NCBI RefSeq assembly: GCF_000166395.1
Contig: NC_014655.1
Span: 1,674,001-1,738,000 of the forward strand
Source of the DNA: Leadbetterella byssophila DSM 17132
Lineage (GTDB): Bacteria; Bacteroidota; Bacteroidia; Cytophagales; Spirosomataceae
Direction: 5' to 3'
Length of the DNA stretch: 64,000 bases
Shown here piece by piece: positions 21,833-49,312 of this stretch (position 1 is the first letter of the stretch; the number at the start of each line of letters is the position of its first letter). The translations under genes were made by a program, and so were the position numbers. The notes below the pieces were generated by a model. That model had not been told where the DNA came from. It made no database searches and saw only the letters and a list, made by a program, of their open reading frames with translations.

Positions 21833-24800
21833 ATGTGTATGCGTAAATTTACCAAAAACGTACTACTGCTATTGGCCATCCTATTGTCCTTTGGTAGTAT
21901 TGCTCAAACTCGAATTACGGGTACAGTCAGCAGTTCTGATGGCGAAACCTTACCCGGCGTCACGGTAAGGGTGAAGAACGGAACTGCAGCTACCGTCACA
22001 AATGTCGAGGGCCAGTATGAAATTTCAGCTCCCAGAGATGCAACTCTAATTTTCAGCTTCCTGGGAATGAAAACCCAAGAAATAGCTTTAAATGGAAGAA
22101 ATATCCTCCACGTAATCCTTGAAAATGATGAAAACACACTGGAGGAAGTCGTAGTTTCCATAGGATATGGATCTGTAAGAAAGAAAGACCTGACTGGAGC
22201 GGTTTCCTCCATAGGAAGTGATAAACTCAGTGCCATTCCTGTGGCCTCTCCTATGGAAGCCATTGCCGGTAGACTAGCGGGTGTGCAAATCTCAACCACA
22301 GAAGGTTCTCCAGACGCTGAAATGAGAATTAGAGTTCGGGGTGGAGGGTCCATCACGGGCGACAATACTCCTTTGTTTATAGTGGATGGCTTCCCTGTAT
22401 CTTCCATCTCTGACATCGCTCCTACAGATATTGAATCCATAGACGTGCTTAAAGATGCCTCTTCCACCGCCATCTATGGTGCCAGAGGAGCGAATGGTGT
22501 AATTATTATCACCACCAAAAGCGGTAAAGCTGGGAAAATGAGTGTAAGCTTTAATAGCTATGGAGGATTCAAAAACCTGGCGAATAAACTGAATGTGCTC
22601 ACTCCCTATGACTATGCCCTTTGGCAGTACGAAAGAGCCTTGCTAGCTAATAGTCTAACTGATTATACCAATTACTTTGGAAACTTTCAGGACATTGACC
22701 TGTACAAAGAGGTTACACCCAATGATTGGCAAGATATTACCTTTGGAAGGACAGGATACATGTTTAATAATAATGTAAACGTGAACGGCGGTAGCGAAAA
22801 GACGAAGTATACTTTGTCCTACACTAATATTCAGGATAAAGCCATTATGCAGTTATCTGCATTCCAAAGGGATAACCTGACCTTCCGTCTGAACAATAAA
22901 CCTTATAAAAATGTGGCACTAGACCTCTCTGTGAGGTATTCTGACACAAGGATAGAAGGCGGTGGTACGAATGAGCAAAATGCTTACTCCTCTGCGGATT
23001 CGCGTTTGAAATTTGCCATGATCTATCCTCCTTTCCCGGTAGCCGGTTTAACCTCATCTGATGATACAGATGAAGGATTCAACCTCTTTAGCCCTATCCG
23101 ATCTCTTCAGGACAATGACAGGTATCAAAGAAGAAAGAACTACACCTTTAACGGTAGTGTATCTTGGAACATCCTTTCTGATTTGATGTTGAAGGTAGAA
23201 GGAGGTCTAGATGACTATAGAGCCATGGATAATAGATTCTATGGTACCAGTACCTATTATGTGAACAATGTACCTTCAGCAGAAAATCAAGGCTTACCGG
23301 CCATATCTTTCGAAAAGCAAGGTAGACAATCCCTAAGAAACACCAATACCCTCAATTATGATTTTAACAAGATCATGGCGCAGGGACATAAGTTAAACTT
23401 GCTTGTTGGTGAAGAGTTTATCCATACCACCAGAGATATCTTTACCTCTATAGTTCATGGATTTCCCAAAACCTTCAACTTTGATGATGCCACCAAATTA
23501 TCATCTCAAGGTTCAGCTAACTCCGTAGAAAATTACCTCTATCCGGATGAGAAACTACTGTCCTTCTTTGGTAGAGCGAATTATGATTACAAAGGCAGAT
23601 ATCTTCTTTCTGCTACATTTAGAGCAGATGGCTCTTCCAAGTTTTCGGAAGGAAATAGATGGGGCTACTTCCCTTCTGTAGCAGCCGCTTGGAGAATTTC
23701 TGACGAAGACTTTATGAATTCCACTTGGATCAATGATCTGAAATTAAGAGCTAGTTACGGTACAGCCGGTAATAACAATATTCCTGCCGGACAAATGGCT
23801 CAAACCTTTAACGTGAGTACTACCACATGGGTAAACGGCTTCAATAGCTTCTGGGCTGCTTCAAAAACCATGGCCAATCCTGACCTTAAGTGGGAAACAA
23901 CGATCACCCGAAACGTAGGGATTGATTTTGCCACGTGGAAAGACCGACTTACAGGTACCATCGATGCTTACGTCAACTCTACTAAAGATCTCCTTATCCT
24001 TTTCCCTACTCCAGGAACAGGATATGACAATCAGTACAGAAACATGGGTGAAACCCGTAACCGTGGTATTGAATTTACGCTAAATGCCTTGGCAGTAAAA
24101 TCGAAGAAGTTCGAATTAAATGTAGGAGCTAATATCAGCTTCAACCGTAATAAGATTATCTCCTTAGGACAAATGGAGAACTTCTACGGAGAATCCGGTT
24201 GGGCCTCTACAGAAATCGGTGCAGATTATTGGATTGCAACAGGTGGTTCCGTGGGTGAAATGTACGGTTATATCAGTGATGGACGCTACGAGCTATCTGA
24301 CTTTTCCGGATACAATGCCTCCACAGGAAGATGGATCTTAAAGGATGGAGTTCCTGATGCCTCCTCTGTGATAGGTACAATTCGTCCGGGAAGTATGAAG
24401 TTGAAAAACCTAACGGAAGGAGATAATGTGGTTAACGTGTCAGATCGTACAGTGATTGGAAATGCTAATCCCAAACACACCGGAGGCTTCAATTTGAGTG
24501 CCAGATATGGTGATTTCGACCTGGCCGCTATCTTTAACTGGAGCTATGGCAATGACATATATAATGCCAATAAAGTAGAGTATACCTCAACTTCTAAGTA
24601 CCATTCTAGAAACATGATAGACCTGATGGCCAGTGGCAACAGATGGACAAACCTCACACCGGATGGAAGAATCAGCAATGATCCTGCGGAGCTTGAAGCC
24701 ATGAACAAAAATACTACCCTTTGGTCACCTTACATGAGTAGATATGTATTTAGCGACTGGGCCGTAGAAGATGGTTCATTCTTAAGATTAAACACGGCTA

Positions 24801-25018
24801 CGGTAGGCTATACGTTACCACAAGCCCTTACATCAAAGGCTAAGATTCAGAAATTACGTTTCTACGCTACCGGCTATAATCTTTGGTTACTTACCAAGTA
24901 TTCCGGATTTGACCCAGAGGTTTCTACGCGCAGAAGAACCCAACTCACCCCGGGAGTGGATTATTCCGCTTATCCTAAGAGTAAAATGTTTGTATTTGGT
25001 TTAAACTTGAATTTCTAA
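21833..25018 (+). CDS. susC: SusC/RagA-family TonB-dependent outer-membrane transporter
   Basis: Imports pectic oligosaccharides across the outer membrane with its SusD partner. About 1060 residues. Signal peptide (the ATG at 21839, third codon, gives MRKFTKNVLLLLAILLSFG and is a plausible true start), a carboxypeptidase-regulatory-like domain (TRITGTVSSSDGETLPGVTV), the SusC signature VVVSIGYGSVRKKDLTGAV, the plug (PLFIVDGFPV, DVLKDASSTAIYGARGANGV) and a long beta-barrel ending in aromatic FVFGLNLNF. It is 11 bases after CE8 and 4 bases before SusD. Substrate inferred from the pectin context. Confidence 0.95.
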   Translation: MCMRKFTKNVLLLLAILLSFGSIAQTRITGTVSSSDGETLPGVTVRVKNGTAATVTNVEGQYEISAPRDATLIFSFLGMKTQEIALNGRNILHVILENDENTLEEVVVSIGYGSVRKKDLTGAVSSIGSDKLSAIPVASPMEAIAGRLAGVQISTTEGSPDAEMRIRVRGGGSITGDNTPLFIVDGFPVSSISDIAPTDIESIDVLKDASSTAIYGARGANGVIIITTKSGKAGKMSVSFNSYGGFKNLANKLNVLTPYDYALWQYERALLANSLTDYTNYFGNFQDIDLYKEVTPNDWQDITFGRTGYMFNNNVNVNGGSEKTKYTLSYTNIQDKAIMQLSAFQRDNLTFRLNNKPYKNVALDLSVRYSDTRIEGGGTNEQNAYSSADSRLKFAMIYPPFPVAGLTSSDDTDEGFNLFSPIRSLQDNDRYQRRKNYTFNGSVSWNILSDLMLKVEGGLDDYRAMDNRFYGTSTYYVNNVPSAENQGLPAISFEKQGRQSLRNTNTLNYDFNKIMAQGHKLNLLVGEEFIHTTRDIFTSIVHGFPKTFNFDDATKLSSQGSANSVENYLYPDEKLLSFFGRANYDYKGRYLLSATFRADGSSKFSEGNRWGYFPSVAAAWRISDEDFMNSTWINDLKLRASYGTAGNNNIPAGQMAQTFNVSTTTWVNGFNSFWAASKTMANPDLKWETTITRNVGIDFATWKDRLTGTIDAYVNSTKDLLILFPTPGTGYDNQYRNMGETRNRGIEFTLNALAVKSKKFELNVGANISFNRNKIISLGQMENFYGESGWASTEIGADYWIATGGSVGEMYGYISDGRYELSDFSGYNASTGRWILKDGVPDASSVIGTIRPGSMKLKNLTEGDNVVNVSDRTVIGNANPKHTGGFNLSARYGDFDLAAIFNWSYGNDIYNANKVEYTSTSKYHSRNMIDLMASGNRWTNLTPDGRISNDPAELEAMNKNTTLWSPYMSRYVFSDWAVEDGSFLRLNTATVGYTLPQALTSKAKIQKLRFYATGYNLWLLTKYSGFDPEVSTRRRTQLTPGVDYSAYPKSKMFVFGLNLNF

Positions 25019-25022
25019 GGAC

Positions 25023-26813
25023 ATGAAAAGAATAATAAGCATACTTGCCCTTACTACTATATTAAGTTCATGTAAGGACGTTCTTGAGGCGCCTACAAAA
25101 TCTTCCTTAGATGAATCTGTCATCTTCTCTACCCCTAGTTTAGCGGAAGGTGCTATTGCAGGTGTTATCCAATCCTTCGCGGAAACCAACTCATACCGAG
25201 GAAGATATTTGGTTTTCTATGGGATTAATACTGATACCGAGGTATATAACTCTGTAAAGAATACTACATCTGAGCAGGCAAGGCTTTCTAATTACAACAC
25301 GAATGTCAATAACTCTCAAATGAACACAGACAATAATGCCTGGGCGAAGTTCTATGAGGGAATTGAAAGGGCTAACCTAGCCATACGAGGCTTGAGAACC
25401 TACGGAAACGTGCAACAAAATAGAGAACTGGCTCAACTACTAGGTGAAATGCTCACCTTGAGAGCAGTGGTGTACAGTGACCTACTTAAAGGTTGGGGTG
25501 ATGTTCCAGCAAGGTTTGAACCTTTAACTTCTGAAACGGTTTATTTAGAAAGATCAGACAGAGATGTCATATATAAACAATTGCTTGCTGATCTTGAAGA
25601 AGCCGCTGAGCTTTTAGCATGGCCAAACGAAACTCCGGCAACTCAATCTGTGGAAAGAGTGAATAAAGCCTTTGCTAAAGGACTGAGGGCTCGTCTAGCC
25701 CTAGCAGCGGGAGGGTACGGACAAAGGCCAGATGGCACCGTTAGAAGAAGTACAGATCCTGAATTGGCACCGGACAAAATGTACGCCATAGCTAAAAAGG
25801 AATGCTTAGACGTAATCAACAGCGGTACAGCCAGACTTTTAGGATTTGAAGAAGTTTGGAAAACCTTTGCTGCAGAAACAAATAGAGCGGGACTGGAGTC
25901 CTTATGGGAAATTCCATTCAGTGAAGGTAGAGGAAGAGTAATCTTTGACCTGGGTGTTAAACATGATGTAGTTAGTGATTACACCGGCCAAAACCGTGGA
26001 GGAACTAACGGCCCAAATCCCATCATGTATTACGAATATGAAAGAGAGGACGTTAGAAGAGACGTAACCTGTGTTCCATATAAATGGGTAGCAAACGCCT
26101 CCTCACCTAAAGGAGTAAAACAAGACCCTGTAGGATTAGGTACTTGGTATTTTGGAAAGTACAGATACGAATGGCTTAACCGTAGAGTCACTTCCACAAA
26201 CGATGATGGCCTTAACTGGATGTATATGCGCTATGCTGACATCTTGTTGATGGCAGCTGAAGCTATCAATGAACTGGATGGTCCTGGAGCTGCGGCTCCG
26301 TATCTAAAAATGATTCGCGACAGAGCTTATCCTAACCATCCTCAAAAGGTTACGGAATACATGTCAAAGGTAACTGCCAGCAAGCAAGCTTTCTTTGAAG
26401 CCATAGTACATGAGAGAGCATTGGAATTTACAGGAGAGATGCTTAGAAAGGCCGATCTCATTCGTTGGAACTTACTGAGCAGCAAACTGGCTGAAGCGAA
26501 GACAAAATTGCAGCAATTAGAAAACAGAGAAGGAAAATATGCACAGCTTCCTAGCAAAATCTATTATACCCTAGCCCCTGATAATGAAAAGGTCATTATC
26601 TATGGCTTAAACTTTGGTGATACAGATGCTGCTGGCGCTGCTTTAGGATATGAATCCAATAAGACTTGGACCTTAAGTGCATCTAGTGATGCTGTAAAAT
26701 ATTGGGATGCCCTGTATTTAAGGAATCCAGACCAACAGCAATTCTGGCCAATCTGGCAAGTCTTCTTAGATACAAGCAATGGTAAACTATCCAATGACGG
26801 ATATAACTTTTAA
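25023..26813 (+). CDS. susD: SusD/RagB-family glycan-binding lipoprotein
   Basis: Surface lipoprotein acting as the lid of the adjacent SusC. 596 residues. Lipobox TILSSCKD (Cys17) with an acidic residue just after, in line with surface export in Bacteroidota. The SusD fold signatures are visible: AIAGVIQSFAETNSYRGRY, NNAWAKFYEGIERANLAIRG, MLTLRAVVYSDLLKGWGDVP, LRARLALAAGG and the C-terminal YMRYADILLMAAEAINEL, followed by FEAIVHERALEFTGEMLRKADLIRW. It starts 4 bases after the SusC stop and is 6 bases from the next gene. Confidence 0.95.
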   Translation: MKRIISILALTTILSSCKDVLEAPTKSSLDESVIFSTPSLAEGAIAGVIQSFAETNSYRGRYLVFYGINTDTEVYNSVKNTTSEQARLSNYNTNVNNSQMNTDNNAWAKFYEGIERANLAIRGLRTYGNVQQNRELAQLLGEMLTLRAVVYSDLLKGWGDVPARFEPLTSETVYLERSDRDVIYKQLLADLEEAAELLAWPNETPATQSVERVNKAFAKGLRARLALAAGGYGQRPDGTVRRSTDPELAPDKMYAIAKKECLDVINSGTARLLGFEEVWKTFAAETNRAGLESLWEIPFSEGRGRVIFDLGVKHDVVSDYTGQNRGGTNGPNPIMYYEYEREDVRRDVTCVPYKWVANASSPKGVKQDPVGLGTWYFGKYRYEWLNRRVTSTNDDGLNWMYMRYADILLMAAEAINELDGPGAAAPYLKMIRDRAYPNHPQKVTEYMSKVTASKQAFFEAIVHERALEFTGEMLRKADLIRWNLLSSKLAEAKTKLQQLENREGKYAQLPSKIYYTLAPDNEKVIIYGLNFGDTDAAGAALGYESNKTWTLSASSDAVKYWDALYLRNPDQQQFWPIWQVFLDTSNGKLSNDGYNF

Positions 26814-26819
26814 TGGGAC

Positions 26820-28355
26820 ATGAAAAGAACATTTAATTATATACTTAGCGCGGCAATCCTCTTAGGGAGTGTAGCCTGCGAGGATAATCTACCGGAAGAG
26901 ATAAGCACCCTAAACGTAAGTAGGGTCTTCTCTCCTACCGGTTTGGAGGCGAGGATTGTTAACCAAACTTCCATAAGGGTTAGTTGGGCCGCGGTCAAAA
27001 ATGCCAAATCCTATAGTATTCAAGTATTTGAAGGACAAAATACTAGTGGAACTCCAGTATGGTCAAAGGACGGCATAGCCTGGGAAGAAATGCCTTACAC
27101 CATTCCTGCACTCAATGGAGAAACCCTATATACCGTTCAAGTAAGGGCTAATGGGGACGGAATAGCAGATTCAAAATGGTCCGGCGTAAGTATCACTACA
27201 AATGCGGAACAGCTTTTCTTACCTGTGGATCCGGAAGAAATAAAAGCTACTCAAGTAACTTTAAAATGGACTGCTGGGTCTGAAGCTGACCGCATACTCC
27301 TTATGCCGGGTGAGAAAACGCACACCCTCACTCCATCTGAAAAAGCGGAAGGAAAAGCTACAATAACTGGGCTAGCAGGTGAAACTACCTATACCGCTAG
27401 ATTAATGAGGGGTACGGCTACCAGAGGCACCATCACTTTCACTACACCAATAGACCTTGGTGATGCAATAGTTATTAATCCGGGGGATGATATCACTACC
27501 ATCTTCCAAAATGCCAAAGAGGGAGATGTGTTTGGTCTTCTTCCTGGTACTTATACCTCAGGAGATATTACTATCAGTAAATCTATCTCCATTAAAGGTG
27601 CCAGACCGAACGATAAACCAGTTCTTAAAGGAACCATCTTTAGAGTTAGCGAAGGTGCTGGTCTAGACTTAAAAGACCTACATTTAGATGGAACGGGTTC
27701 TCTGGATGGAAATCAAACCATCATCTACGCAGCAGGAAACTTTAAGCCCCTGAGCATTGACGGTTGTATCATCAGAAACTACACCAAAGGTACTCTTTAT
27801 GTAAACAATGCCACATTAATTGAATCTGTGAGTATTTCAAATACTATATATTCAGAAATTGAATGTAATGGCGGGGATTTTATTGATTTCAGGAACGGTC
27901 TGACTCCTAAGTTTGATTTCTTTAATAATACTGCCTATAATTCAGCCCTGGCCAGAGATTTCTTCCGCATGGATGCAGGCGGGTCTACGAATTTCCCTGA
28001 TGTGCAAAGCATCATTAGCATTAGAAATAATACTTTCAACAATGTTTCAAATGGAAATAACAGAAGAATGTTATATATCCGTTTGGCCAATCATGAGATT
28101 AGCTTTGAAAAAAATATGGTAACTAATACTCAGGGGTATCATACGAATCAAGCCTCTACGAACATTGTGAAGTTTGATAAGAACAATTATTTCAATGCTC
28201 CAAACTTTAAGGGAAGTACTCAGTCGGGAGCTAAGAATGACCCATCCGGTACCACTCTGGATCCAGGTTATACGAATGCTGCAGGAGGTAATTTTAAAGT
28301 AAGCAATGAAGAGTTACGCTTCCAAGGTATTGGAGACCCGCGGTGGTTACAATAA
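26820..28355 (+). CDS. Surface beta-helix lipoprotein with FN3 and DUF4957/DUF5123-like domains
   Basis: 511 residues. Lipobox LGSVAC (Cys20) followed by ED, fitting surface lipoproteins. Then a fibronectin-type segment (about 40-210, TGLEARIVNQTSIRVSW and ETLYTVQVRANGDG; a second copy IKATQVTLKWTAG) and a right-handed beta-helix (about 215-510) starting NPGDDITTIFQNAKEGDVFG with ITISKSISIKGARPNDKPVL. Together this is the DUF4957 / DUF5123 layout often encoded beside SusCD in pectin loci. No lyase or hydrolase catalytic signature could be picked out. It is probably a glycan-binding partner, but weak lyase activity is not excluded. Confidence 0.82.
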   Translation: MKRTFNYILSAAILLGSVACEDNLPEEISTLNVSRVFSPTGLEARIVNQTSIRVSWAAVKNAKSYSIQVFEGQNTSGTPVWSKDGIAWEEMPYTIPALNGETLYTVQVRANGDGIADSKWSGVSITTNAEQLFLPVDPEEIKATQVTLKWTAGSEADRILLMPGEKTHTLTPSEKAEGKATITGLAGETTYTARLMRGTATRGTITFTTPIDLGDAIVINPGDDITTIFQNAKEGDVFGLLPGTYTSGDITISKSISIKGARPNDKPVLKGTIFRVSEGAGLDLKDLHLDGTGSLDGNQTIIYAAGNFKPLSIDGCIIRNYTKGTLYVNNATLIESVSISNTIYSEIECNGGDFIDFRNGLTPKFDFFNNTAYNSALARDFFRMDAGGSTNFPDVQSIISIRNNTFNNVSNGNNRRMLYIRLANHEISFEKNMVTNTQGYHTNQASTNIVKFDKNNYFNAPNFKGSTQSGAKNDPSGTTLDPGYTNAAGGNFKVSNEELRFQGIGDPRWLQ

Positions 28356-33637: not shown

Positions 33638-36424
33638 ATGATAAGATTTATCCTTTTTCTCATCATTGGTGGCCCCATTTACGCCCAAACCAATCCATTA
33701 GCTGACAGCCTCCGTATCATGCAAGTATATGGAGAAGAATTTGATTTACGTGCTAATGAGAAAGATCCAACGGCTCGCCTGTTAGCCAAAGCTAATCAAT
33801 TGATACTGGAAGAAAAGGACAAAGAAGCCTCCGCTATATTAGATAAGATAATAAGTTCCAAAGAAAAATTTTGGTACCAGGTCACAAAATCTCGCTTACT
33901 TACTTTAAGAGGGGAATATGACCAAGCTGTGGAAATACTTCAAAAATTAAATCCCAAGAAAGGAAGTGCTGAAGCCGCCATTAAAGAACTCGAGATGGCC
34001 AAAAACATGGAGCACAAGCAGGAGTATGTAGAACTAGTGAAGCACTACGAGAAATCCCTGGAGCATCTCAAAAAAACCTCCTACACCTACCTTTTAGGTA
34101 CTGTCCTAAACGATTTAGCATTTGCTTATGACGAAGCAGGATTTCGGCATAAAACCATACAATTCTCTGATCAGGCATTAAAAATCTTTATGGAGCACTA
34201 TCCGAAAGATTATAGCATCGTGAGTGTCTGCTTTAATAACTTACTTTTCTACGTGATAGAATACGGAGATAAAAAGAAAAGTTCAGAGGTTCACGAGAAG
34301 TACGTTCAATATATGGAGCACTTCTTAGCCAATAAGAAAAGCTTTTCAGCTCCTAAAAAATTTGAAGATTTACATGCTGAAGGCCTTTACCGCTTAAGTG
34401 ATTTACGCTACACATGTTTCAAGAATGGAGACATACTAGGGGCACTTAACCGACTAGAAACCTTCCACAAAAGAGCCCCAAAGGCATGGTCTCAAGAAAA
34501 CGTAGGTATTGTAAACTCTGGAATAGAAGCGGCACAATACCAGTTCCGGCAGCAAAAAAGATTCGATCTCGCACTTAAATACACTCATCAGATAGGAAAA
34601 TACAAAAAAACTTCCTACACCGAGATGAAGAAGAATGCAGCCTTCGCCCTAACTTATTATGACGCCAAGGATTACAAAAAGAGCTTACCATATACATTAA
34701 AATGTCTGGAGGAATTTGATTTCCCCAAGGGTTCAAAAAGCTGGCAAACCTTAATGGCCTTAAAAGCACACCTGGAATCCAAACTTAAAATGGATCCTTT
34801 ATCTACCTTAAAAACCCTTTTTGACGCTACTTTAAAGGAAGATATCAAAGAATTTAATCCTGATAAATATCCTCAACATATCAACAAAATATTCATCCAG
34901 GTATTGATTCGTGCAGCTTGGGTCTCTAACGAACTAGACAAGCCCCAAGATGCTACTTTCTATTTCCGATTAGCCGCAAAAATCTTTGAGAAATACTATC
35001 AAAATGGATATTACAACGATAGCTTAGGAGAAATTTTGGATGATCTGGAAGATGGACTATACCAGGATAAGGGTTCTGAAAAAGAAATCATTGAAAACTT
35101 AAATCAATTAGAAAGAATCACAAACGCCCACCTTTGGGGTAGATTCTCCTCCAAATATCTTCAGAATTTAAATCTCCCAAAAGAGGAGTTACAAAGGAAG
35201 AACCAACTGGAACTACGAAGAAACCAGTTGAGCCGCACGTATGAATTAGAGCTGGCTAACCATCGAGAAATAAAGGAAATAGATTTACAACTAGACGGAA
35301 TCCAAAATAGATTATCTGCCGTTTCCAAAGAGTTTGCCATCTTAAGCGCTACTAAATTTGACGTAAGAGAGGTTCAAAAGCTGTTAAAGCCTAAAGAAGT
35401 ACTGGTCAAGTATACCACAGGTTCAAAAAATATATATGCCCATATCATCACCCAGAATTCTATCCAATTAAAACCTTTAGGAGAAATTGAAACTGTTAAG
35501 AAGCATACTCAAACCTTCATTGATGAGGTAAAGAAGATCAAGCACCTCTCATCTCAAATTTACCAACCCTTACGCGAGTCTCTGATCCACCCTTTGGATC
35601 TGGAAAAATATGAATCCATAGTTTTTATATCAGAGGACTTCCTGAGTTATGTTCCTTTCGAACTCTTGTTTAAAAGTATGAAACCGGTATCTCATGCCTT
35701 CAGCTTTAAAAACCTTTTGCTGACACGCATGAACAGTACTCCTCTTAGTATATCAGGTAATTTAGCAGGTTTTGTCCCTACCTATCCAAATAGTCAAAGG
35801 GATCTAAAATTCACCAGACAAGAGCTAAGTAATATCGAAGATTATATTGGCTCCACCTCTCTTTTTGAAGGGCCACAAGCATCTAAACAGAGTTTCTTAG
35901 GCAGTGTAGGTAAATACAGGATCCATCATTTGGCCATGCACTCAGAAATGGATGATGAAGATTTCGAGATGTCCAGCTTATCCTTCTATGCAGAAGAGAA
36001 ACTTCATTTCCACGAGATATATTCCTTAAATTTCCCTTCTGAAATGGTAGTATTGAGCGCTTGTAATACCGGATCCGGGCAATACTTAAATGGAGAAGGA
36101 GTCATGAGCTTGGCCAGAGCTTTATCCTATGCCGGAGTCAGATCATCTTTAACCAGCTTATGGCAAGTACCAGATAAGGAAAGTGCAGAACTGATGGTCT
36201 TGTTTTATAAATATCTATCCAAAGGGCTGGAAAAAGACCTTGCCTTAATCAAAGCGAAAGAAGAATTTATAGAAAATCATCCCATGCACTCTCACCCTTA
36301 TTTTTGGGCCGGATTTATACTGACGGGTGATACCCGCCCCTTGAAGGAAAAGAAAAATTATACCTATCTTTTACTCGGACTAGGACTCATCGCAGCCGTA
36401 CTAGCGTACAGGAAATTAAGGTAG
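33638..36424 (+). CDS. Membrane-anchored TPR-CHAT (caspase-like) protein
   Basis: 928 residues. Signal peptide (MIRFILFLIIGGPIYAQ), then a long helical TPR-type region (about 30-500), a coiled stretch (510-570), and a CHAT domain (about 590-900). The caspase/separase dyad is present: His768 in HHLAMHSEM (canonical AtHG) and Cys809 in VVLSACNTGSGQ, with GEGVMSLARALSYAGVRSSLTSLWQV following. The C-terminus is a TM helix (YLLLGLGLIAAVLAYRKLR). Topology therefore predicts TPR and CHAT in the periplasm. It overlaps tail to tail by 9 bases with the anti-sigma-like gene. CHAT domains are proteases or signalling relatives; activity here is inferred from the intact dyad. Confidence 0.9.
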   Translation: MIRFILFLIIGGPIYAQTNPLADSLRIMQVYGEEFDLRANEKDPTARLLAKANQLILEEKDKEASAILDKIISSKEKFWYQVTKSRLLTLRGEYDQAVEILQKLNPKKGSAEAAIKELEMAKNMEHKQEYVELVKHYEKSLEHLKKTSYTYLLGTVLNDLAFAYDEAGFRHKTIQFSDQALKIFMEHYPKDYSIVSVCFNNLLFYVIEYGDKKKSSEVHEKYVQYMEHFLANKKSFSAPKKFEDLHAEGLYRLSDLRYTCFKNGDILGALNRLETFHKRAPKAWSQENVGIVNSGIEAAQYQFRQQKRFDLALKYTHQIGKYKKTSYTEMKKNAAFALTYYDAKDYKKSLPYTLKCLEEFDFPKGSKSWQTLMALKAHLESKLKMDPLSTLKTLFDATLKEDIKEFNPDKYPQHINKIFIQVLIRAAWVSNELDKPQDATFYFRLAAKIFEKYYQNGYYNDSLGEILDDLEDGLYQDKGSEKEIIENLNQLERITNAHLWGRFSSKYLQNLNLPKEELQRKNQLELRRNQLSRTYELELANHREIKEIDLQLDGIQNRLSAVSKEFAILSATKFDVREVQKLLKPKEVLVKYTTGSKNIYAHIITQNSIQLKPLGEIETVKKHTQTFIDEVKKIKHLSSQIYQPLRESLIHPLDLEKYESIVFISEDFLSYVPFELLFKSMKPVSHAFSFKNLLLTRMNSTPLSISGNLAGFVPTYPNSQRDLKFTRQELSNIEDYIGSTSLFEGPQASKQSFLGSVGKYRIHHLAMHSEMDDEDFEMSSLSFYAEEKLHFHEIYSLNFPSEMVVLSACNTGSGQYLNGEGVMSLARALSYAGVRSSLTSLWQVPDKESAELMVLFYKYLSKGLEKDLALIKAKEEFIENHPMHSHPYFWAGFILTGDTRPLKEKKNYTYLLLGLGLIAAVLAYRKLR

Positions 36425-40125: not shown

Positions 40126-40731
40126 ATGAAAAAACTCCTACTCCTCTTTGCCTTATTTAGTTTCCAAAGTACAGCTCAGAAGCCTATCGTTTTCAAAGAG
40201 GTTTGGGTTTGGGAATATACGGATGAAGACGGTCAAAAACAGGAAATGGCCATCTATCACCTTCCGTCCAAAAACTATTGGCTTTTCACACCCGAATCCT
40301 ACGGTTCAAGTGGAGAAATGATTTCCTATATCTTAGCAAAGCCAAACGGAGAATACACCTTTGCCTTTCAAAATGAACATAGGAAAAAACTAGACCTTCA
40401 AACCGTTAAGTTAAACTTCCTCGCTCCAAAACCACTGCCGCCAATAGGTCAGAAGACAAAAACCTTTGGAGATACCTTTCTAGGATTTCCACTGATAACC
40501 GGGAAAGAACATAAAGGACCTGGTGGCAGTACTATCTATTTGGCACCAACTAAAAGTTCACTACTACCCATTCTTTATTTTAATTCTTTAGAAGGAGATG
40601 CAAAAATACCCGTCCATTTTCCTGTTACTCTACCGGGAAATATAATCCCATTAGAAGAGGTAGAAAATGGACAGGTAAAGTATACATTTAAATTTAAATC
40701 CAATACCGAGTATTGGGTATACCAGTATTAA
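40126..40731 (+). CDS. Unknown secreted protein
   Basis: 201 residues with a signal peptide (MKKLLLLFALFSFQSTAQ). The rest is beta-rich with aromatic stretches (EVWVWEYTDEDGQKQEM; FKFKSNTEYWVYQY). No recognisable domain. It follows the unknown lipoprotein by 56 bases. The word CTAACATTTG in that gap resembles a -7 element but has an extra base in the spacer, so it may or may not have its own promoter. It ends in TTAA, shared with the stop of the convergent GH28 gene. Confidence 0.75.
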   Translation: MKKLLLLFALFSFQSTAQKPIVFKEVWVWEYTDEDGQKQEMAIYHLPSKNYWLFTPESYGSSGEMISYILAKPNGEYTFAFQNEHRKKLDLQTVKLNFLAPKPLPPIGQKTKTFGDTFLGFPLITGKEHKGPGGSTIYLAPTKSSLLPILYFNSLEGDAKIPVHFPVTLPGNIIPLEEVENGQVKYTFKFKSNTEYWVYQY

Positions 40732-43055
40732 CGAAAAGCCGAGGACTTCGATTTGCTTAAAAACTTAATTCCGTCCTTTGGATAAGAAGTATTGAGCAAA
40801 CGAATCTTCTGACTCCTTTCCCCATGAATTTCTAAAAATGTACCGGGGCGATTTGCATGTTTCATCTGATCAAAAAGTACATTCTTGCTGTTTTGTACTT
40901 GAATCAAAGCCCCATCCTCTTTCGTCTGCACTCCCACATTCTTTAATTGGATATCCTCTGCTTCTATGATCAGAATACCTTTGTCTGATTTAAAATGAGA
41001 ATCTTCAATTTTGATTCCCCTAATGGGCATTTCAGGCAAACCTCTCAGTACAATAGCGGAAACTGCCCCATGACTTACTACATTTTTGATATAGAAGTTT
41101 TTGAACTGTGGGGTACCTTCATTCACCGGTTGAGGTGCGATAACCGGTAGAGCATGGCTATCCCCATCTAATGGAACGGGATCCTTTGCCTCGTAGTACA
41201 TATCAAATAAGATAGCCTCCCCAGGGATATTGTTCATAGCTATATTGCTGATATAGATATTCTCTACCACACCACCTCTATCTCTTTTGGTCTTAAACCT
41301 CAACCCTATATCTGTCCCTAAGAAGCTACAATTATCCACAAACACATTCTTAACTCCTCCAGACATCTCTGATCCTATCACAAATCCGCCATGTCCGTGG
41401 AAGACGGTAGTATTCTTGATAATGACATTCTCCGTGGGAACGCCTCTTTTTCTACCCTGTTCGTCTCTGCCAGATTTTAAGGTGATGGCATCATCTCCCG
41501 TATCAAAGGTACATCCATCCACTATGGCATAAGAACAAGATTCTAGATCTAAGGCATCATTATTCTGACCAAACCAAGGATTTCTAACATTCACGTTTCT
41601 AAGGGTAATGTGCTTGCTCAAAAGCGGATGCAAGGTCCAGGCAGGAGAGTTTTGAAAAGTAACCCCTTCAATCAGTACATTCTCGCATTCTGTTATACTG
41701 ATCATATTGGGTCGCAAGAAATCTTTTACCGTCATATAATCTTCTAGGGTTTTTCCTTCTACCCAAAGATTCGCCCAATCTCTCACATCTTCGTTTCCAT
41801 ATCTGGACTGTTCACTAGGGTACCAGGCATCTCCTTTCTTACCCACTACTCCACCGGACTCTACTAATTTCCTCCATTGGGTACTGGTCAATTTATTCTT
41901 CTTCACCTGCTTCCATACTTCACCAGACCCGTCCATGATTCCCTGTCCAGTGATTGCGATATTCACTTGGCCTACCGCCCAAATGGGTGCATGGCAGCGA
42001 AGAGCCTTTTGACCTTCCCAGGTAGTCTCTACTATAGGATAATCGTCTCTATTATTACTAAATTGTAGCAATGCTCCCTTTTGCAGATGCAGGTTAACAT
42101 TACTTTTCAACTTCAAAGGTCCAGTAACCCACACTCCTGCAGGAATCAGTACCGTTCCTCCTCCTGCCTCATGTGCCAAATCTATGGCCTGAGCTATGGC
42201 TGTAGTGTTCACCGTAAATCCATCTGCCTTAGCTCCATATCGTACAATATTGAAAGTATCTTTCCGGAAATAAGGCTCGTAAACTAGAGGCAGTTCAAAC
42301 TCATATTTATCAGCAAAGACTGACTTCTTCAAAAAGTTTCTTAGGGGATGAGAGGTCTCAACCAAAGCCTCCGCCACAGCCTTTGCCATCAATCGAGCAC
42401 CATAGGGGGAAAAATGGGTATTGTCAGTGATACCCTGTGGAAACTTTGGAAAGAAGCCACCAGTAAAATGCATGAAGATTTTCTTCGAAGATTCCACTCC
42501 ATGCGCCTCGATGATGGCTTGGCTTTTGGCATGTAAATCAATTAGTGCCAATTTATGCTTCGCAGCCACTTCCTTTACAACTTCAGGATAGGCTCCATGC
42601 TGATCCACAAACTTACCGTTTTCATCAAATTTCCGGCGCATGACAGGGGTCATTAGAACAGGAGTAGCTCCTTTTGCCTGAATCTCCTGAATATACCTTT
42701 CCAGATTCCTACGATAATCTGTGTTTGCCTCAGCGTACCTGAGGGTATCGTCTTGTTTTTGATCATTGTGACCAAACTGTATAAAGACAAAATCTCCCTT
42801 TTGCAACTGGTCATGTACGGCTTTCCAATGTCCCAAGCTGCGGAAACTTTTGGTGCTCCTCCCATTAACTGCATGGTTCTGTATCTCTACGGCATCCGTG
42901 AAGAGCTCAGGAAATACCTGACCCCAACCGGTCTCAGGCGCATCTATAGGCTTTTTGTTCGCCATGGTGGAATCACCAATCAAGAATATTCGTTGACGAG
43001 GCACCTGTAGGGACATCAATACCCACAGGCTGCACAGTAGCAAGAAGTTTTTCAT
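40728..43055 (-). CDS. CE12 rhamnogalacturonan acetylesterase fused to GH28 polygalacturonase
   Basis: 775 residues. Signal sequence, then an SGNH/CE12 esterase (about 20-240) with GDSTM (nucleophile Ser29), FGHND and the C-terminal DNTHFSPYGA, which supplies the catalytic Asp/His. A GH28 right-handed beta-helix follows (about 265-760): FNIVRYGAKADG, GPLKLKSNVNLHL, NNDALDLES, FDTGDDAITLKSGRDEQGR, HGHGGFVIGSEMSGG and RFKTKRDRGG. Catalytic acidic residues of GH28 are present. One chain thus combines deacetylation with backbone hydrolysis of pectin. Last gene of the kduD-kduI-CE12/GH28 operon. Confidence 0.94.
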   Translation of the reverse strand: MKNFLLLCSLWVLMSLQVPRQRIFLIGDSTMANKKPIDAPETGWGQVFPELFTDAVEIQNHAVNGRSTKSFRSLGHWKAVHDQLQKGDFVFIQFGHNDQKQDDTLRYAEANTDYRRNLERYIQEIQAKGATPVLMTPVMRRKFDENGKFVDQHGAYPEVVKEVAAKHKLALIDLHAKSQAIIEAHGVESSKKIFMHFTGGFFPKFPQGITDNTHFSPYGARLMAKAVAEALVETSHPLRNFLKKSVFADKYEFELPLVYEPYFRKDTFNIVRYGAKADGFTVNTTAIAQAIDLAHEAGGGTVLIPAGVWVTGPLKLKSNVNLHLQKGALLQFSNNRDDYPIVETTWEGQKALRCHAPIWAVGQVNIAITGQGIMDGSGEVWKQVKKNKLTSTQWRKLVESGGVVGKKGDAWYPSEQSRYGNEDVRDWANLWVEGKTLEDYMTVKDFLRPNMISITECENVLIEGVTFQNSPAWTLHPLLSKHITLRNVNVRNPWFGQNNDALDLESCSYAIVDGCTFDTGDDAITLKSGRDEQGRKRGVPTENVIIKNTTVFHGHGGFVIGSEMSGGVKNVFVDNCSFLGTDIGLRFKTKRDRGGVVENIYISNIAMNNIPGEAILFDMYYEAKDPVPLDGDSHALPVIAPQPVNEGTPQFKNFYIKNVVSHGAVSAIVLRGLPEMPIRGIKIEDSHFKSDKGILIIEAEDIQLKNVGVQTKEDGALIQVQNSKNVLFDQMKHANRPGTFLEIHGERSQKIRLLNTSYPKDGIKFLSKSKSSAFR

Positions 43056-43072
43056 TTATTTAAGGTGAATAA

Positions 43073-43097
43073 ACTCAGCGGCCGACTGCCGCTGAGT
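43073..43097 (-). repeat. Intercistronic perfect inverted repeat between kduI and CE12-GH28
   Basis: A 10-bp perfect stem ACTCAGCGGC / GCCGCTGAGT (43073-43082 with 43088-43097), 5-base loop. It lies in the 50-base gap between kduI and the fused esterase/polygalacturonase. Only TTTATTC follows on the minus strand, so a full terminator is unlikely; partial termination or mRNA processing is possible. Confidence 0.75.
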
Positions 43098-43105
43098 AAG
43101 TATGA

Positions 43106-43936
43106 TTAACGTAGTAGATTAAGATCTACAAAGTCCATATCCGTGTAGTCTTTATTTTCTCCACCCATTCCCCAAATGAAGGAATAACTGGCAGAACCTG
43201 CTCCAGAGTGGATGGACCAAGGCGGAGAGATTATGGCCTGATGGTTTCTCACCCACATGTGACGAGTTTCATCCGGTTTACCCATAAAATGCATCACCCC
43301 GTGCGCAGGATCCACATCAAAATAAAGATAGATTTCTGCTCTTCTGTCATGTACGTGAGGAGGCATAGTGTTCCAGATGCTACCATTGTGCAAAATAGTC
43401 AAGCCCATCACTAATTGACAGGAATCTATTCCGTCTGCATGAATGTACTTATATACCGTTCTGTGATTTGAAGTCTCAGGTGCTCCAATGGTCATAGGAA
43501 ACGCCTGCTCCTTAGTATACAGAGTGGTGGGGTAACTCGCGTGTGCAGGAGCAGAAAGGATATAAAACAGAGCCGGATTTCCTGCATCTTCTGAATGAAA
43601 TACTACCTCCTTCACTCCTTTTCCAATGTATAAGCAGGACAATTTATCCAAATCAAATCTTTGCCCATCTGCTAGGATATAACCTTTGCCTCCAACATTA
43701 ATGGCACCCAGCTCTCTGCGTTCCAAAAAGTACTCACTTTTCAGCGCATCATAAGTTCCTAATGTAAGGCTGTTGTTTACAGGTTTTGCCCCTCCCACAA
43801 TCAAACGTTCATAGTGAGAATACACTACCTGAATTTTGTCTTCCACAAATACCTGTTCCACCAGGAAGTTCTCCCTTAGTTCAGAGGTATTCATTCTCTC
43901 CACTTCCCGTGGACTACTTTCATATCTTATTTCCAT
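43106..43936 (-). CDS. kduI: 5-keto-4-deoxyuronate isomerase
   Basis: Isomerises 5-keto-4-deoxyuronate (from unsaturated galacturonide breakdown) to 2,5-diketo-3-deoxygluconate. 276 residues, normal length, double cupin fold. The family start MEIRYESSPREVERMNTSELRENFLVE and VYSHYERLIVGGAKP, the metal-binding HVHDRRAEIYLYFDV and the closing SPPWSIHSGAGSASYSFIWGM are visible. Located 12 bases after kduD and 50 bases before the CE12-GH28 gene. Confidence 0.96.
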   Translation of the reverse strand: MEIRYESSPREVERMNTSELRENFLVEQVFVEDKIQVVYSHYERLIVGGAKPVNNSLTLGTYDALKSEYFLERRELGAINVGGKGYILADGQRFDLDKLSCLYIGKGVKEVVFHSEDAGNPALFYILSAPAHASYPTTLYTKEQAFPMTIGAPETSNHRTVYKYIHADGIDSCQLVMGLTILHNGSIWNTMPPHVHDRRAEIYLYFDVDPAHGVMHFMGKPDETRHMWVRNHQAIISPPWSIHSGAGSASYSFIWGMGGENKDYTDMDFVDLNLLR

Positions 43937-43948
43937 TATAACAAAATT

Positions 43949-44710
43949 TTATCTTCCCATCCAGCCACCATCTACGGTTAAAATGGTGCCTTGTACATAA
44001 TCTGAAGCTTTTGAACACAAGAACACAGCAGGGCCTACAAAGTCAGCCGGCTCTCCCCATCTCCCCGCAGGAATACGATCCAAAATAGACTTGCTTCTAA
44101 CCGGATCATTTCTCAAAGCTTCTGTATTGTCTGTTGCTATGTATCCCGGTGCTATACCGTTTACATTCACGCCCCTAGTGGCCCACTCATTAGCAAAACC
44201 CTTGATCAAAGAACCTATGGCTCCTTTACTCGCTGCATAGCCAGGTACATTGATCCCTCCTTGGAAGGTAAGTAATGAGGCCGTAAATACAATCTTTCCA
44301 CTTCCTCTTTCTACCATTCCTTTGCCTATCTCACGCGTTAAGATAAACTGAGCGTTTAGGTTGATATTAATGACTTTATCCCAATATTCATCGGAATGCT
44401 CCACCGCAGGGGCTCTCAGTATGGTGCCGGCATTATTGATCAATATATCAATGACCGGATGGTCTGCTTTCACTTTCTCTATAAAAGCATACAAAGCGGC
44501 CCTGTCATTGAAATCAGCACGATATGGATAAAACTTCCTGCCTAATGCCTCTATGGCTTGCTGAACTTCTGAACCACTTTCAGGCATATTGCCAGAGACA
44601 CCTATCACATCTGCCCCTGCAGCAGCCAATCCTTCCGCCATAGCTTTGCCAATACCTCTATTACATCCGGTCACTAAAGCTAACTTACCACTTAGATCAA
44701 AAATCTCCAT
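43949..44710 (-). CDS. kduD: 2-deoxy-D-gluconate 3-dehydrogenase (2,5-diketo-3-deoxygluconate reductase)
   Basis: NAD(H)-dependent reduction of 2,5-diketo-3-deoxygluconate to KDG, which joins the KdgK/Eda route. 253 residues, classical short-chain dehydrogenase. Visible: nucleotide-binding TGCNRGIGKAMAEGLA, NNAG in ILINNAGTILRAP, the catalytic YAASKGA and the GYIATDNTEALRNDP loop that is characteristic for KduD. First gene of the operon; a perfect -7 box lies about 50 bases before its start. Confidence 0.94.
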   Translation of the reverse strand: MEIFDLSGKLALVTGCNRGIGKAMAEGLAAAGADVIGVSGNMPESGSEVQQAIEALGRKFYPYRADFNDRAALYAFIEKVKADHPVIDILINNAGTILRAPAVEHSDEYWDKVININLNAQFILTREIGKGMVERGSGKIVFTASLLTFQGGINVPGYAASKGAIGSLIKGFANEWATRGVNVNGIAPGYIATDNTEALRNDPVRSKSILDRIPAGRWGEPADFVGPAVFLCSKASDYVQGTILTVDGGWMGR

Positions 44711-44761
44711 TTTGCATTATTTTAATATATAAAAATTCCCAGTTGGATGAAATCTACACCT

Positions 44762-44769
44762 CAAATGTA
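44762..44769 (-). promoter_or_regulatory. -7 promoter box of the kduD operon
   Basis: Minus-strand TACATTTG fits TAnnTTTG exactly, with its end about 50 bases upstream of the kduD ATG. Confidence 0.55.
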
Positions 44770-44823
44770 TGTAAGGATATAGCTTAATGTAGAAGGAAGC
44801 AAACTAAGGCAACTAAAATTTTA

Positions 44824-44839
44824 TGCAAACGTTCCCGAA
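44824..44839. promoter_or_regulatory. Candidate LacI-family operator C
   Basis: TGCAAACGTTCCCGAA with the dyad centre at 44830/44831. The right half matches sites A and B exactly; the left half is weaker. It lies between the divergent kduD and lacI-family genes, about 60 bases beyond the kduD -7 box. Confidence 0.6.
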
Positions 44840-44971
44840 AGATTTTAATTCCCAAGTGCCTATAAAGAATTCCCATCGTACTGTTGTAAATCTAGCTCAA
44901 AAAAACGATATTTACCCTTTGCATCCACACCCCCTTAACCAGAAGGAAAATTGTACTTAAACTAGAAAATC

Positions 44972-45964
44972 GTGGGATCTATTACCATAAAAGATATTGC
45001 TAAGGCCTTGAATATTTCCATCTCTACCGTGTCACGGGCATTGAGAGATAGTTATGATATCAATGCCCAAACCAAACAGATGGTGGTAGAATATGCGGAG
45101 AAAATGAATTATCGTCCGAACCCCATAGCCCTTAGTCTAAAGGAGAATAAGAGCAGATCTTTGGGGGTGATCGTACCGGAAATAGCTAATACCTTCTTCT
45201 CCCAAGCCATTAACGGCATTGAAGAAGTAGCCTATGAAAGAGGATACCATGTGGTCATCTTCCAAAGCCACGAATCACAAGAAAGAGAGATTTCTAATAT
45301 TCAACACCTTTTCGCCAGAAAAGTAGACGGATTACTTATTTCCCTTTCAGGTTCGAATAAAGATATTTCCCACCTGGACGAATACAGAAAGAATAATTTC
45401 CCTATTGTGTATTTCGACCGCGTACCTGAGACTCCTGATGCGCATAAGGTAGTGGTAGATAACTTTGAAGGCGCATTCAAAGCCACAGAATACCTGATTC
45501 AAAAAGGTAAAAAGGACATTGCTCTCATTATCAGTCCACCTACCCTTTCCATAACACAAGAAAGAACAGCGGGTTATAAGAGCGCTTTAGAGAAATACAA
45601 TATACCGGTGAGGGAAGAGTTGATCAGGCATTGTTCTTTCCAAAAGGATGAAGCCGAACAGGCCATCAAAGCCCTTCTAGAAGAGCAAGAACCGGATGCT
45701 TTTTTTATGGGAAGTGACAGACTAGCACTCAATTGTTATGAAGCCTTCAAAAAGTGGAGCAACAGAAGAGATATCCCTCTGGTAGGATTCACGAATTTAG
45801 GCATTGCCCACCTTTTGGAACCTCATTTGAACACCATAGTCCAACCTGCCCTTGACATAGGGAGAAAATCTGCAGAGATCCTTTTGGATGTCATTGAAAA
45901 TAAAAGACGAGGCAAAGGCTTCGAAAAAGTAACCTTAGGAACAGAATTAAACTTCAGATCATGA
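44972..45964 (+). CDS. LacI-family transcriptional regulator (pectin/uronate)
   Basis: 330 residues from a GTG start. N-terminal helix-turn-helix SITIKDIAKALNISISTVSRALRD, hinge region (RPNPIALSLKENKSRSLGVIVPEI), and a periplasmic-binding-protein-like effector domain (about 62-330; NTFFSQAINGIEEVAYERG; FDRVPETPDAHKVVVDNFEGAF; DAFFMGSDRLALNCYEAF). Divergent from the kduD operon. Candidate operators with a shared LacI-type centre (AACGTT) are present here, before PL10 and before GH105, so it probably controls all three units and itself. The effector is unknown; a KDG-related compound is plausible. Confidence 0.93.
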   Translation: MGSITIKDIAKALNISISTVSRALRDSYDINAQTKQMVVEYAEKMNYRPNPIALSLKENKSRSLGVIVPEIANTFFSQAINGIEEVAYERGYHVVIFQSHESQEREISNIQHLFARKVDGLLISLSGSNKDISHLDEYRKNNFPIVYFDRVPETPDAHKVVVDNFEGAFKATEYLIQKGKKDIALIISPPTLSITQERTAGYKSALEKYNIPVREELIRHCSFQKDEAEQAIKALLEEQEPDAFFMGSDRLALNCYEAFKKWSNRRDIPLVGFTNLGIAHLLEPHLNTIVQPALDIGRKSAEILLDVIENKRRGKGFEKVTLGTELNFRS

Positions 45965-47474: not shown

Positions 47475-47482
47475 TATATTTG
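47475..47482 (+). promoter_or_regulatory. -7 promoter box that fixes the start of the AraC-type gene
   Basis: TATATTTG fits TAnnTTTG exactly. It overlaps a possible TTG start codon at 47480, which therefore cannot be in the transcript; translation must begin further down, at the TTG at 47504. Confidence 0.65.
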
Positions 47483-47503
47483 AGGCAGTTCAACTTGTTC
47501 TCA

Positions 47504-49312
47504 TTGAAAAAACTTCTATTTTTCCTATTCGCCTTTTCATCTTTACAGGCCCAAGTACGGCTGGAAGTATCTATAGATACCATACTCCTGCCGGATCAAC
47601 CCCTTTATATTGCCAGTTCTGCAAACGAATGGAATCCCAAAGACCCTCAATGGAAACTCAGAAAGATAGGCAGCAGGACGTATACTATTGATGTAGAGAA
47701 CATAGACTTTGAATATAAAATCACTCAAGGCAACTGGAACATCGTAGAAGGCACAGCTGATGGAAAGAAAATTCCAAACCGCCTTTTTTCAGAAACTCCC
47801 ACTATAGATGGGGTGAAGAAGATAGAGGTCAAAGGATGGGAACACCGACCTGAATTTGAAATCACCATCACCAAAATACCTGATAATACTCCCCCGGATG
47901 CAGCCATATACATCTCAGGTAATTTCAATAACTGGGAAGTGAAAGATGAACTTTTTAGGATGAAGAAACAGTATGACGGTAGTTATAAGATCAACATCTT
48001 CTCCCGTCAAAATGAGTTGCAATTTAAGTTTCATCGTGGCAACTGGAATTCTGCAGAGGGCTGGAAAAGTGGGAAAGCCCGCCCAAATAGAATTGTTAAA
48101 TCAGACGGACAAAACGTTCAGAATGTTTCTGTGGAGATTGAAAGTTGGGAAGATTTAGCTTCTACCTTTAATTTCTTTTCTCTCATTGACCTGATTCTAC
48201 TTTTTGCCGCTTTCCAGGGATTCCTACTGATGATAGTCATCCCTACTATGCAGGACTTTAATAAAGAAGCTAATCGCCTCCTCGTAATCCTACTGGGACT
48301 AGCGTCTTTCTTCATCTTCTGTAAAGTAGTAGCCTATTATAGAGATGTGGCTAACTGGTTCCCGAAATTGATCCTCTTACCTAACTTCGCCTTATTCACC
48401 TACGCACCTTTATTTTTCTTCTATATCCAAAAACTGTTATTTAAGAAGACCTTTACCAGAGATCAAGCATGGCCTCACTTCTTGCTCCCCATTATGCAAT
48501 TTTTGGTCTATACGCCCTATCTTTTTATGGAAGGAAAACGCTTCCAACATAAGATAGTGAACAATGAGGAAGACCTGAAATGGGTGTTTGCTAGTACTTT
48601 CTTCATAGCCATTTTCAGCAATCTCTACTATTATTTCAAAAGTAAAAAAAGCATTAGGAAGTATTCCGAATCCTATATACATGAAACGGCTTACCATCAA
48701 AATATCAACTATCTATCTACGGTACTTGTACTGTTTTTGATATGCATTCTGGCAGGCATCTTCATTGGATTATTGTTCATTTATGACCTATTCTTTGTCG
48801 ATATCACTTCCCTATTGGAGAATAGCATCAATCTGGTGTGGATAGCCTTCTCTTTGATAGGTTTTGTACTGGGATACTATGCCATACACCAACCGGAAAT
48901 CTTCAAGATCATTGAAACTGAACAAGAAAAACCGGAAGTTTCCAAAGCAAAACCCGCCATTTCCGAAAATGACCTGAGCACGTTTAAACAAAAAATGGAA
49001 GAAGTGATGTTGAAGGAAAAGCCTTTCTTGAATCCAAATCTCACCCTAAATGACCTGGCTACATTGATCAAAACTCCATCCCATAATGTCTCAAAGGTGA
49101 TCAGAGAAGGGTACCAAAAGAACTTCTTTGACTTTATCAACTGGTACAGAATTGAGGAGTTTAAGAACTATGTAAACCTACCTAAGTACCAAAACTATAC
49201 ACTTCTTGGAATTGCCTTCGAGGTGGGATTTAATTCTAAGACTGCCTTTAACCGAGCTTTCAAAAAAATGACCGGACAAACCCCAAGTGAATACTATCAA
49301 TCCCGAAAATAG
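47504..49312 (+). CDS. Seven-TM membrane AraC-type regulator with two periplasmic CBM48-like repeats
   Basis: 602 residues from a TTG start at 47504, chosen because earlier TTG codons lie in or right after the -7 box and this one gives a clean signal peptide (MKKLLFFLFAFSSLQAQ). Two tandem beta domains follow (about 18-110 and 112-212) with matching motifs: YIASSANEWNPKD and FEYKITQGNWNIVEG versus YISGNFNNWEVKD and LQFKFHRGNWNSAEG. They resemble E-set/CBM48 glycogen-binding modules. Then seven TM helices (about 218-445) and a C-terminal AraC helix-turn-helix (about 500-602: LTLNDLATLIKTPSHNVSKVI; GIAFEVGFNSKTAFNRAFKK). A one-component transmembrane regulator is inferred; the ligand is unknown. 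Confidence 0.85.
   Translation: MKKLLFFLFAFSSLQAQVRLEVSIDTILLPDQPLYIASSANEWNPKDPQWKLRKIGSRTYTIDVENIDFEYKITQGNWNIVEGTADGKKIPNRLFSETPTIDGVKKIEVKGWEHRPEFEITITKIPDNTPPDAAIYISGNFNNWEVKDELFRMKKQYDGSYKINIFSRQNELQFKFHRGNWNSAEGWKSGKARPNRIVKSDGQNVQNVSVEIESWEDLASTFNFFSLIDLILLFAAFQGFLLMIVIPTMQDFNKEANRLLVILLGLASFFIFCKVVAYYRDVANWFPKLILLPNFALFTYAPLFFFYIQKLLFKKTFTRDQAWPHFLLPIMQFLVYTPYLFMEGKRFQHKIVNNEEDLKWVFASTFFIAIFSNLYYYFKSKKSIRKYSESYIHETAYHQNINYLSTVLVLFLICILAGIFIGLLFIYDLFFVDITSLLENSINLVWIAFSLIGFVLGYYAIHQPEIFKIIETEQEKPEVSKAKPAISENDLSTFKQKMEEVMLKEKPFLNPNLTLNDLATLIKTPSHNVSKVIREGYQKNFFDFINWYRIEEFKNYVNLPKYQNYTLLGIAFEVGFNSKTAFNRAFKKMTGQTPSEYYQSRK

Follow-up and report, generated by a model that had tools for sequence, protein, structure and literature searches.

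Regulators that couple extracellular glycans to gene expression have been described in several forms. In Bacteroides thetaiotaomicron, SusR (BT3705) is an inner-membrane protein whose periplasmic sensor responds to maltose or maltooligosaccharides and which activates the sus genes, as stated in the portions of the two reports cited here (PMC3878776, PMC11633381). Its DNA-binding domain is said there to have no significant similarity to other known transcription factors (PMC3878776). Bacteroides also has hybrid two-component systems, which combine periplasmic glycan sensing and AraC-type output in one chain, according to the same portion of that report (PMC3878776). In Saccharophagus degradans, AraC regulators with six or seven transmembrane (TM) helices beside cellulase genes were proposed in 2008 to be detectors of extracellular polysaccharides, in the section cited (PMC2386152).

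We analyzed a stretch of 64,000 nucleotides from Leadbetterella byssophila DSM 17132 (the window), which encodes, at 47480..49312 on the forward strand, a membrane-bound regulator of the AraC type that is 610 amino acids long from a TTG start and carries two starch-binding-like repeats. A preliminary description of this gene regarded the fusion as undescribed. In a literature search with most subscription papers outside its scope, the architecture was not found described; however, polytopic AraC regulators beside polysaccharide genes have been in print since 2008 (PMC2386152, in the section cited). We computed the architecture, the predicted fold of the repeats, the association with starch loci, and an operator and its distribution. 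We consider it likely that the protein is a one-component, starch-responsive activator, with predicted ligand and DNA binding, that is SusR-like in action and not in build. The membrane protein probably senses starch fragments on the non-cytoplasmic side by means of its two modules and, with its C-terminal DNA-binding part, switches on a distant starch-uptake operon. Three other loci of the window were noted. Positions 40731-45961 encode a fusion of a GDSL lipase and GH28, KduI, a short-chain dehydrogenase (named from sequence) and a LacI regulator, and this region looks like a pectin/uronate locus. A second glycan-uptake locus, at 21833-28352, encodes SusC, SusD and an fn3-DUF4957-DUF5123 protein, and a 928-amino-acid protein with a CHAT protease-like domain is encoded at 33638-36424.

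The main open reading frame of the regulator begins at 47480; the start given in the preliminary description is a second in-frame TTG at 47504. Either start yields a signal-peptide-like N terminus ending in SSLQA/Q. On the basis of sequence and family alignment, the signal peptide comprises residues 1-24 (47480..47551), with a conserved Ala-Gln at its end. It is followed by two periplasmic repeats, one of residues 25-122 (47552..47845) and the other of residues 123-224 (47846..48151), both on the forward strand, as are the other parts of this gene. The parallel motifs from which tandem repeats had been proposed (EWNPKD and NNWEVKD, QGNWNIVEG and RGNWNSAEG) are present, and the repeats are homologous by hhalign, which aligns 38-row profiles of each over 98 columns with probability 100 and E 2.1e-40. 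A family-averaged hydropathy profile has seven peaks after the signal peptide, giving seven predicted TM helices at residues about 235-470 (48182..48889), a part of the window protein that no Pfam model covers. Residues about 513-610 (49016..49309) form the predicted cytoplasmic, AraC-type DNA-binding region, which exceeds the Pfam gathering scores of both HTH_18 (49.8 bits versus 33.6) and HTH_AraC (32.8 versus 26.6). Hydropathy and these Pfam scores confirm the seven hydrophobic helices and the C-terminal AraC helix-turn-helix that had been seen in the sequence, and the N terminus agrees with the signal peptide noted there.

The topology that the preliminary description assumed, with the helix-turn-helix inside the cytoplasm, agrees with loop charges. 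Lys and Arg are more abundant in loops expected to be inside, with a mean of 8.1 per protein versus 5.3 in loops expected to be outside, which fits a predicted outside N terminus and inside C terminus. A full-length structure model made from two rows was too weak for use (pLDDT 43.5). Membership in two known classes was rejected: at E <= 1, there was no Pfam match to a 7TM or extracellular domain of the 7TMR-DISM receptors, nor to the histidine kinase and receiver domains of hybrid two-component systems.

The preliminary description had called for structure prediction of the repeats. Our model of repeat 2 was built from only four rows, namely both repeats of the window protein and of homolog L006, and has a pLDDT of 75.5 and a pTM of 0.68. 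Foldseek ranks a CBM20 domain first (E 9.8e-4). VIA-align likewise places starch-binding domains at the top (Z 8.7-9.5, rmsd 2.2-2.7, 80-92 aligned), with Z up to 9.5 for those of CGTase, beta-amylase and glucoamylase, and with Z 8.7, rmsd 2.2 and 80 aligned for the glycogen-binding domain of AMPK-beta. By these comparisons, the single-repeat model has a starch-binding-domain fold of the CBM20/CBM48/AMPK-GBD type.

Profile searches against the CBM48 and AMPK-beta families had also been suggested, and no window repeat passes a Pfam gathering threshold, those of CBM48 and AMPK1_CBM included; for the N-terminal part of the window protein, the scores are 14.5 versus 26.8 for AMPK1_CBM and 14.6 versus 27 for X25. 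The proposed likeness to CBM48 modules therefore holds for a starch-binding-type predicted fold, but not for CBM48 in particular, since CBM20-type domains fit at least as well. Among relatives, repeat-2 rows weakly match AMPK1_CBM (15/38), CBM53 (10/38) and X25 are further weak matches of the repeats, and CBM_48 is weakly matched by 5/38 repeat-1 rows at E <= 0.1 (best E 2.8e-5); the unrelated Chibby is also among the weak matches of the repeats (12/38). Searched against PDB sequences, the repeat-1 profile gave weak matches (best E 0.23), and the best match of the repeat-2 profile was BoSusG (8dl1/8dge; E 0.0027), with ribosomal protein S2 also listed. Because these matches are weak and include ribosomal protein S2, the fold is not proven by sequence alone. 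The layout of BoSusG is given as CBM98-CBM48 in the portion of the report cited (PMC11633381).

Conservation within the repeats is pronounced. In repeat 2, W152, K183, W189 and N203 are found in 61/61 alignment rows and R204 in 60/61. The corresponding figures for repeat 1, among rows having it, are 57/57 for W51 and K80, 56/57 for W86 and 55/57 for R101. We take the conserved W/K/W/N positions to be equivalents of the AMPK-beta sugar contacts W100, K126, W133 and N150. The near-invariant Trp/Lys/Trp and Asn-Arg positions suggest ligand contact and are candidate residues for it. Elsewhere in the window's genome, the only match to the repeats at E <= 0.001 is the N-terminal domain of an esterase, which is encoded in the sus operon discussed below.

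A search for the same domain order in other genomes, as had been recommended, covered 200 genomes from the same GTDB family and revealed full-length homologs in 69, a count made by hand from matches that were either full length or cut off by a contig end. We fetched 60 loci, from 60 of these 69 genomes. All 60 relatives are full length, and the architecture is therefore no chance fusion; 56 have two repeats, and four have lost repeat 1. A phylum-wide profile search of 395 genomes matched 14 at E <= 1e-60, the window's own included. Sensor repeats are found in three more of these 14 (G345, G008 and G271), all of the same order, and in the other 10 the alignment starts only at about profile position 236, corresponding to a 7TM-AraC core without sensor. 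No relative was found in the viral contigs searched, and a search of genome contigs gave one locus.

The occurrence of this sensor-less core in 10 of the 14 genomes matched in the phylum-wide search and the loss of repeat 1 in 4/60 family members would be in keeping with a different role for the repeats. In such a scheme, the protein would still regulate starch genes, but the ligand would be sensed by the seven-helix domain or a partner, and the repeats would dock or dimerize. We regard this as unlikely, given that the Trp/Lys/Trp and Asn-Arg positions are so nearly invariant as to suggest ligand contact and that at least one repeat is kept in 60/60 fetched relatives. Sensing of the ligand by the repeats is our preferred reading.

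The gene neighborhoods of homologs associate the regulator with starch loci. It adjoins susC-susD in 45/60 fetched loci, usually with susE and with GH13 and/or GH53; this figure derives from a hand list, and the SusC and SusD clusters used are single-linkage and include generic SusC/SusD. The SusC-family gene is directly downstream of the regulator in 34 cases, separated from it by one gene in 10 and divergent in 2, and a SusE family member is at most six genes away in 44/61 loci. Pfam assigns the neighbors to SusC, SusD, SusE, GH13 (alpha-amylase and cyclomaltodextrinase), GH53 and esterase families. At the level of whole genomes, SusE is present in 63/69 that have the regulator, being missing from 6/69, versus 7/131 others (Fisher 1.3e-36, with kinship between genomes ignored). 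GH53 genes (PF07745, 4.2e-101), such as L066:11077-12201 and its relatives, lie inside starch loci with the operator described below in front. To our knowledge, GH53 comprises only beta-1,4-galactanases, which makes its presence beside GH13 and SusE puzzling. Two homologs, L108 in G025 and L052 in G045, have in common an upstream pair of neighbors (clusters 163 and 63) that are not sus genes.

Intergenic promoters between the regulator and susC share the sequence AARTGGRRCGA-N19-TAnnTTTG, in which we take TAnnTTTG to be the Bacteroidetes -7 element. This candidate operator was first spotted by eye in four promoters (L040, L048, L066 and L077), and these four are therefore not independent of its definition. 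When 200 genomes were searched with AARTGGRRCGA-N17-22-TAnnTTTG, 60 exact matches were found in 54 genomes, versus 12 matches (hand count) for a backwards control pattern in the same genomes. Matches occur in 50/69 regulator genomes versus 4/131 others (Fisher 1.9e-26, kinship likewise ignored), and the spacer is exactly 19 bp in 46 of the 60. Most of the matches (49/60) are intergenic and immediately precede SusC (34, including one at a distance of 408 bp), GH53 (12) or GH13 (3) genes. The remaining 11, left out of the sus-type count, comprise nine intragenic matches, one other intergenic match (L150) and one at a contig edge beside the regulator (L143). In L054, L081 and L086, the box is more than 380 bp upstream of susC. 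The operator also precedes sus-type genes away from the regulator in G029 (two genes, on another contig), G025 and G010, as well as an isolated GH13 gene in G186.

In the genome from which the window comes (G000), the regulator is located at 1.72 Mb, and about 0.8 Mb separates it from the only sus operon. This operon (2,518,764-2,529,009, reverse strand) has the order susC-susD-susE-GH13-GH13-esterase and contains the genome's only SusE match. The strict operator pattern has 0 matches in G000 and in its sister genome G093, and a looser search of G000 gave 3 matches versus 1 for the control. By comparing the two genomes, we found in both susC promoters a conserved block that contains the box AGGCGGGGCGA, which differs from the strict pattern at 2 of 11 positions and stands 20 bp before TAACTTTG in G000 or TATCTTTG in G093. 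For reference, the box in the susC promoter of a relative is AAGTGGGGCGA. G000 and G093 each contain a single perfect copy of the sequence TACAAGGCGGGGCGAA, upstream of susC in both, and the next-best match deviates at two positions in G000 and at three in G093.

The variant box is accompanied by a change in the protein. At residue 542 (49103-49105), which from general knowledge of AraC domains we place in recognition helix 1, Arg replaces the family's Asn; Asn is found in 59/61 homologs, and Arg only in the window copy and L037. Likewise, the genomes of the window copy and L037 are the only two in which C replaces T at position four of the box. R542 and the T-to-C change count as a single evolutionary event, but they would link the window regulator with the distant susC operator. 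Because of the operator variant, and because the window gene is the only full-length copy in its genome, we infer that this copy acts on the sus operon.

In a phylogenetic tree, the window copy groups with L037, L038 and L052, none of which is sus-linked, whereas the sus-linked copies from its genus form a separate clade. The gene also starts 42 bp behind a gene for a beta-eliminating lyase of the tryptophanase type. The window copy might accordingly have left the starch regulon and control its neighbors (the beta-eliminating lyase and an M16 peptidase) or something else. We find this improbable: the lyase neighbor is common only to L037, not to L038 or L052, the genome has a complete sus operon and no other full-length copy of the regulator, and the operator variant and R542 appear in the same two genomes. 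Control of the adjacent lyase and peptidase genes, considered as a candidate function by itself, was rejected, as these neighbors are not conserved beyond L037. A second susC/susD pair immediately precedes the sus operon in G000 and G093 (G000:C1:2529260-2533786, L098; L109:828-5406). In G046 (L055), orthologs of this pair (about 67-72% identical) lie behind the regulator and are preceded by the operator.

The likely explanation, in our view, is a one-component starch receptor. SusC would bring maltooligosaccharides into the periplasm, where they would bind the two starch-binding-like repeats. The seven-helix membrane part would pass the signal on, so that the membrane-tethered AraC domain changes, binds the 11-bp box, which precedes the -7 element TAnnTTTG by about 19-20 bp, and recruits RNA polymerase. 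The genes expressed would be susC and those behind it (susD, susE, two GH13 genes and the esterase), and in the window's genome the target would be the sus operon at 2.519-2.529 Mb, reached by looping to, or diffusion towards, the distant promoter. Starch as the ligand, activation and not repression, coupling across the membrane and action at a distance are what we infer from sequence analysis. The original proposal of a one-component membrane regulator that senses a glucan is supported by the predicted fold, the starch loci, the operator and the variant of the operator at the genome's own susC.

As to the direction of control, no conserved -33 box was seen in the aligned promoters, and the box is fixed 19-20 bp from the -7 element, which would be anticipated if an activator makes contact with RNA polymerase. 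Repression that starch relieves is in our judgment very unlikely; nothing specific speaks for it, although box position alone does not decide the matter. That galactan and not starch is sensed, given that 12/60 operator matches precede GH53 genes of strong identity, is highly improbable, as these loci also contain GH13 genes for cyclomaltodextrinase and amylase, the loci of the window's genome and of G093 each have two GH13 genes but lack GH53, and the repeat has a predicted starch-binding-domain fold.

We can now compare this predicted starch-responsive activator with known systems. ToxR/CadC-type regulators have a winged-helix domain at the N terminus and a single TM helix. The window protein resembles them in having a DNA-binding domain tethered to the membrane, but has seven TM helices and a C-terminal AraC domain. 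Like the Bacteroides hybrid two-component systems, it would combine periplasmic glycan sensing with AraC output in one chain; unlike them, it lacks kinase and receiver domains, and its coupling would be direct, as in a one-component system. Its repeats are like CBM20, CBM48 and AMPK-beta domains in the predicted fold of repeat 2 and in the pattern FNNW...K...W, but they score below the Pfam thresholds and are placed in a regulator, not in an enzyme or kinase.

The closest comparisons are with SusR and the regulators of Saccharophagus degradans. By association and predicted topology, the window protein is like SusR in being a starch-locus regulator with a periplasmic sensor and a cytoplasmic DNA-binding domain in one protein. 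It is unlike SusR, compared by description, in that its DNA-binding domain is of the AraC type. With the Saccharophagus degradans regulators, the family shares six to seven TM helices, an AraC domain and a location beside polysaccharide genes, the last of which does not apply to the window copy. Those regulators, again compared by description, belong to another phylum and concern another substrate, and the section cited mentions neither a starch-binding sensor nor an operator for them (PMC2386152).

Starch loci of the sampled environmental bacteria carry a regulator unlike SusR in appearance, and its sensor, operator and regulon are now predicted in terms of an 11-bp box, recognition-helix residue 542 and named candidate sugar-contact residues. 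This raises the questions of how a membrane-tethered AraC protein might act on a promoter 0.8 Mb away and to which signals the orphan 7TM-AraC proteins of this phylum respond. We tentatively suggest, with somewhat less than even confidence, that the protein is a founding case of a 7TM receptor joined directly to an AraC factor, with polysaccharide-binding modules of the type that anchors enzymes to starch as its sensor, and that the sensor-less 7TM-AraC core, which occurs across Bacteroidota and has no Pfam model, is a general one-component chassis that acquires sensors. Polytopic AraC regulators are a kind already known; what is new is the sensor of starch-binding type, together with the starch regulon and the operator.
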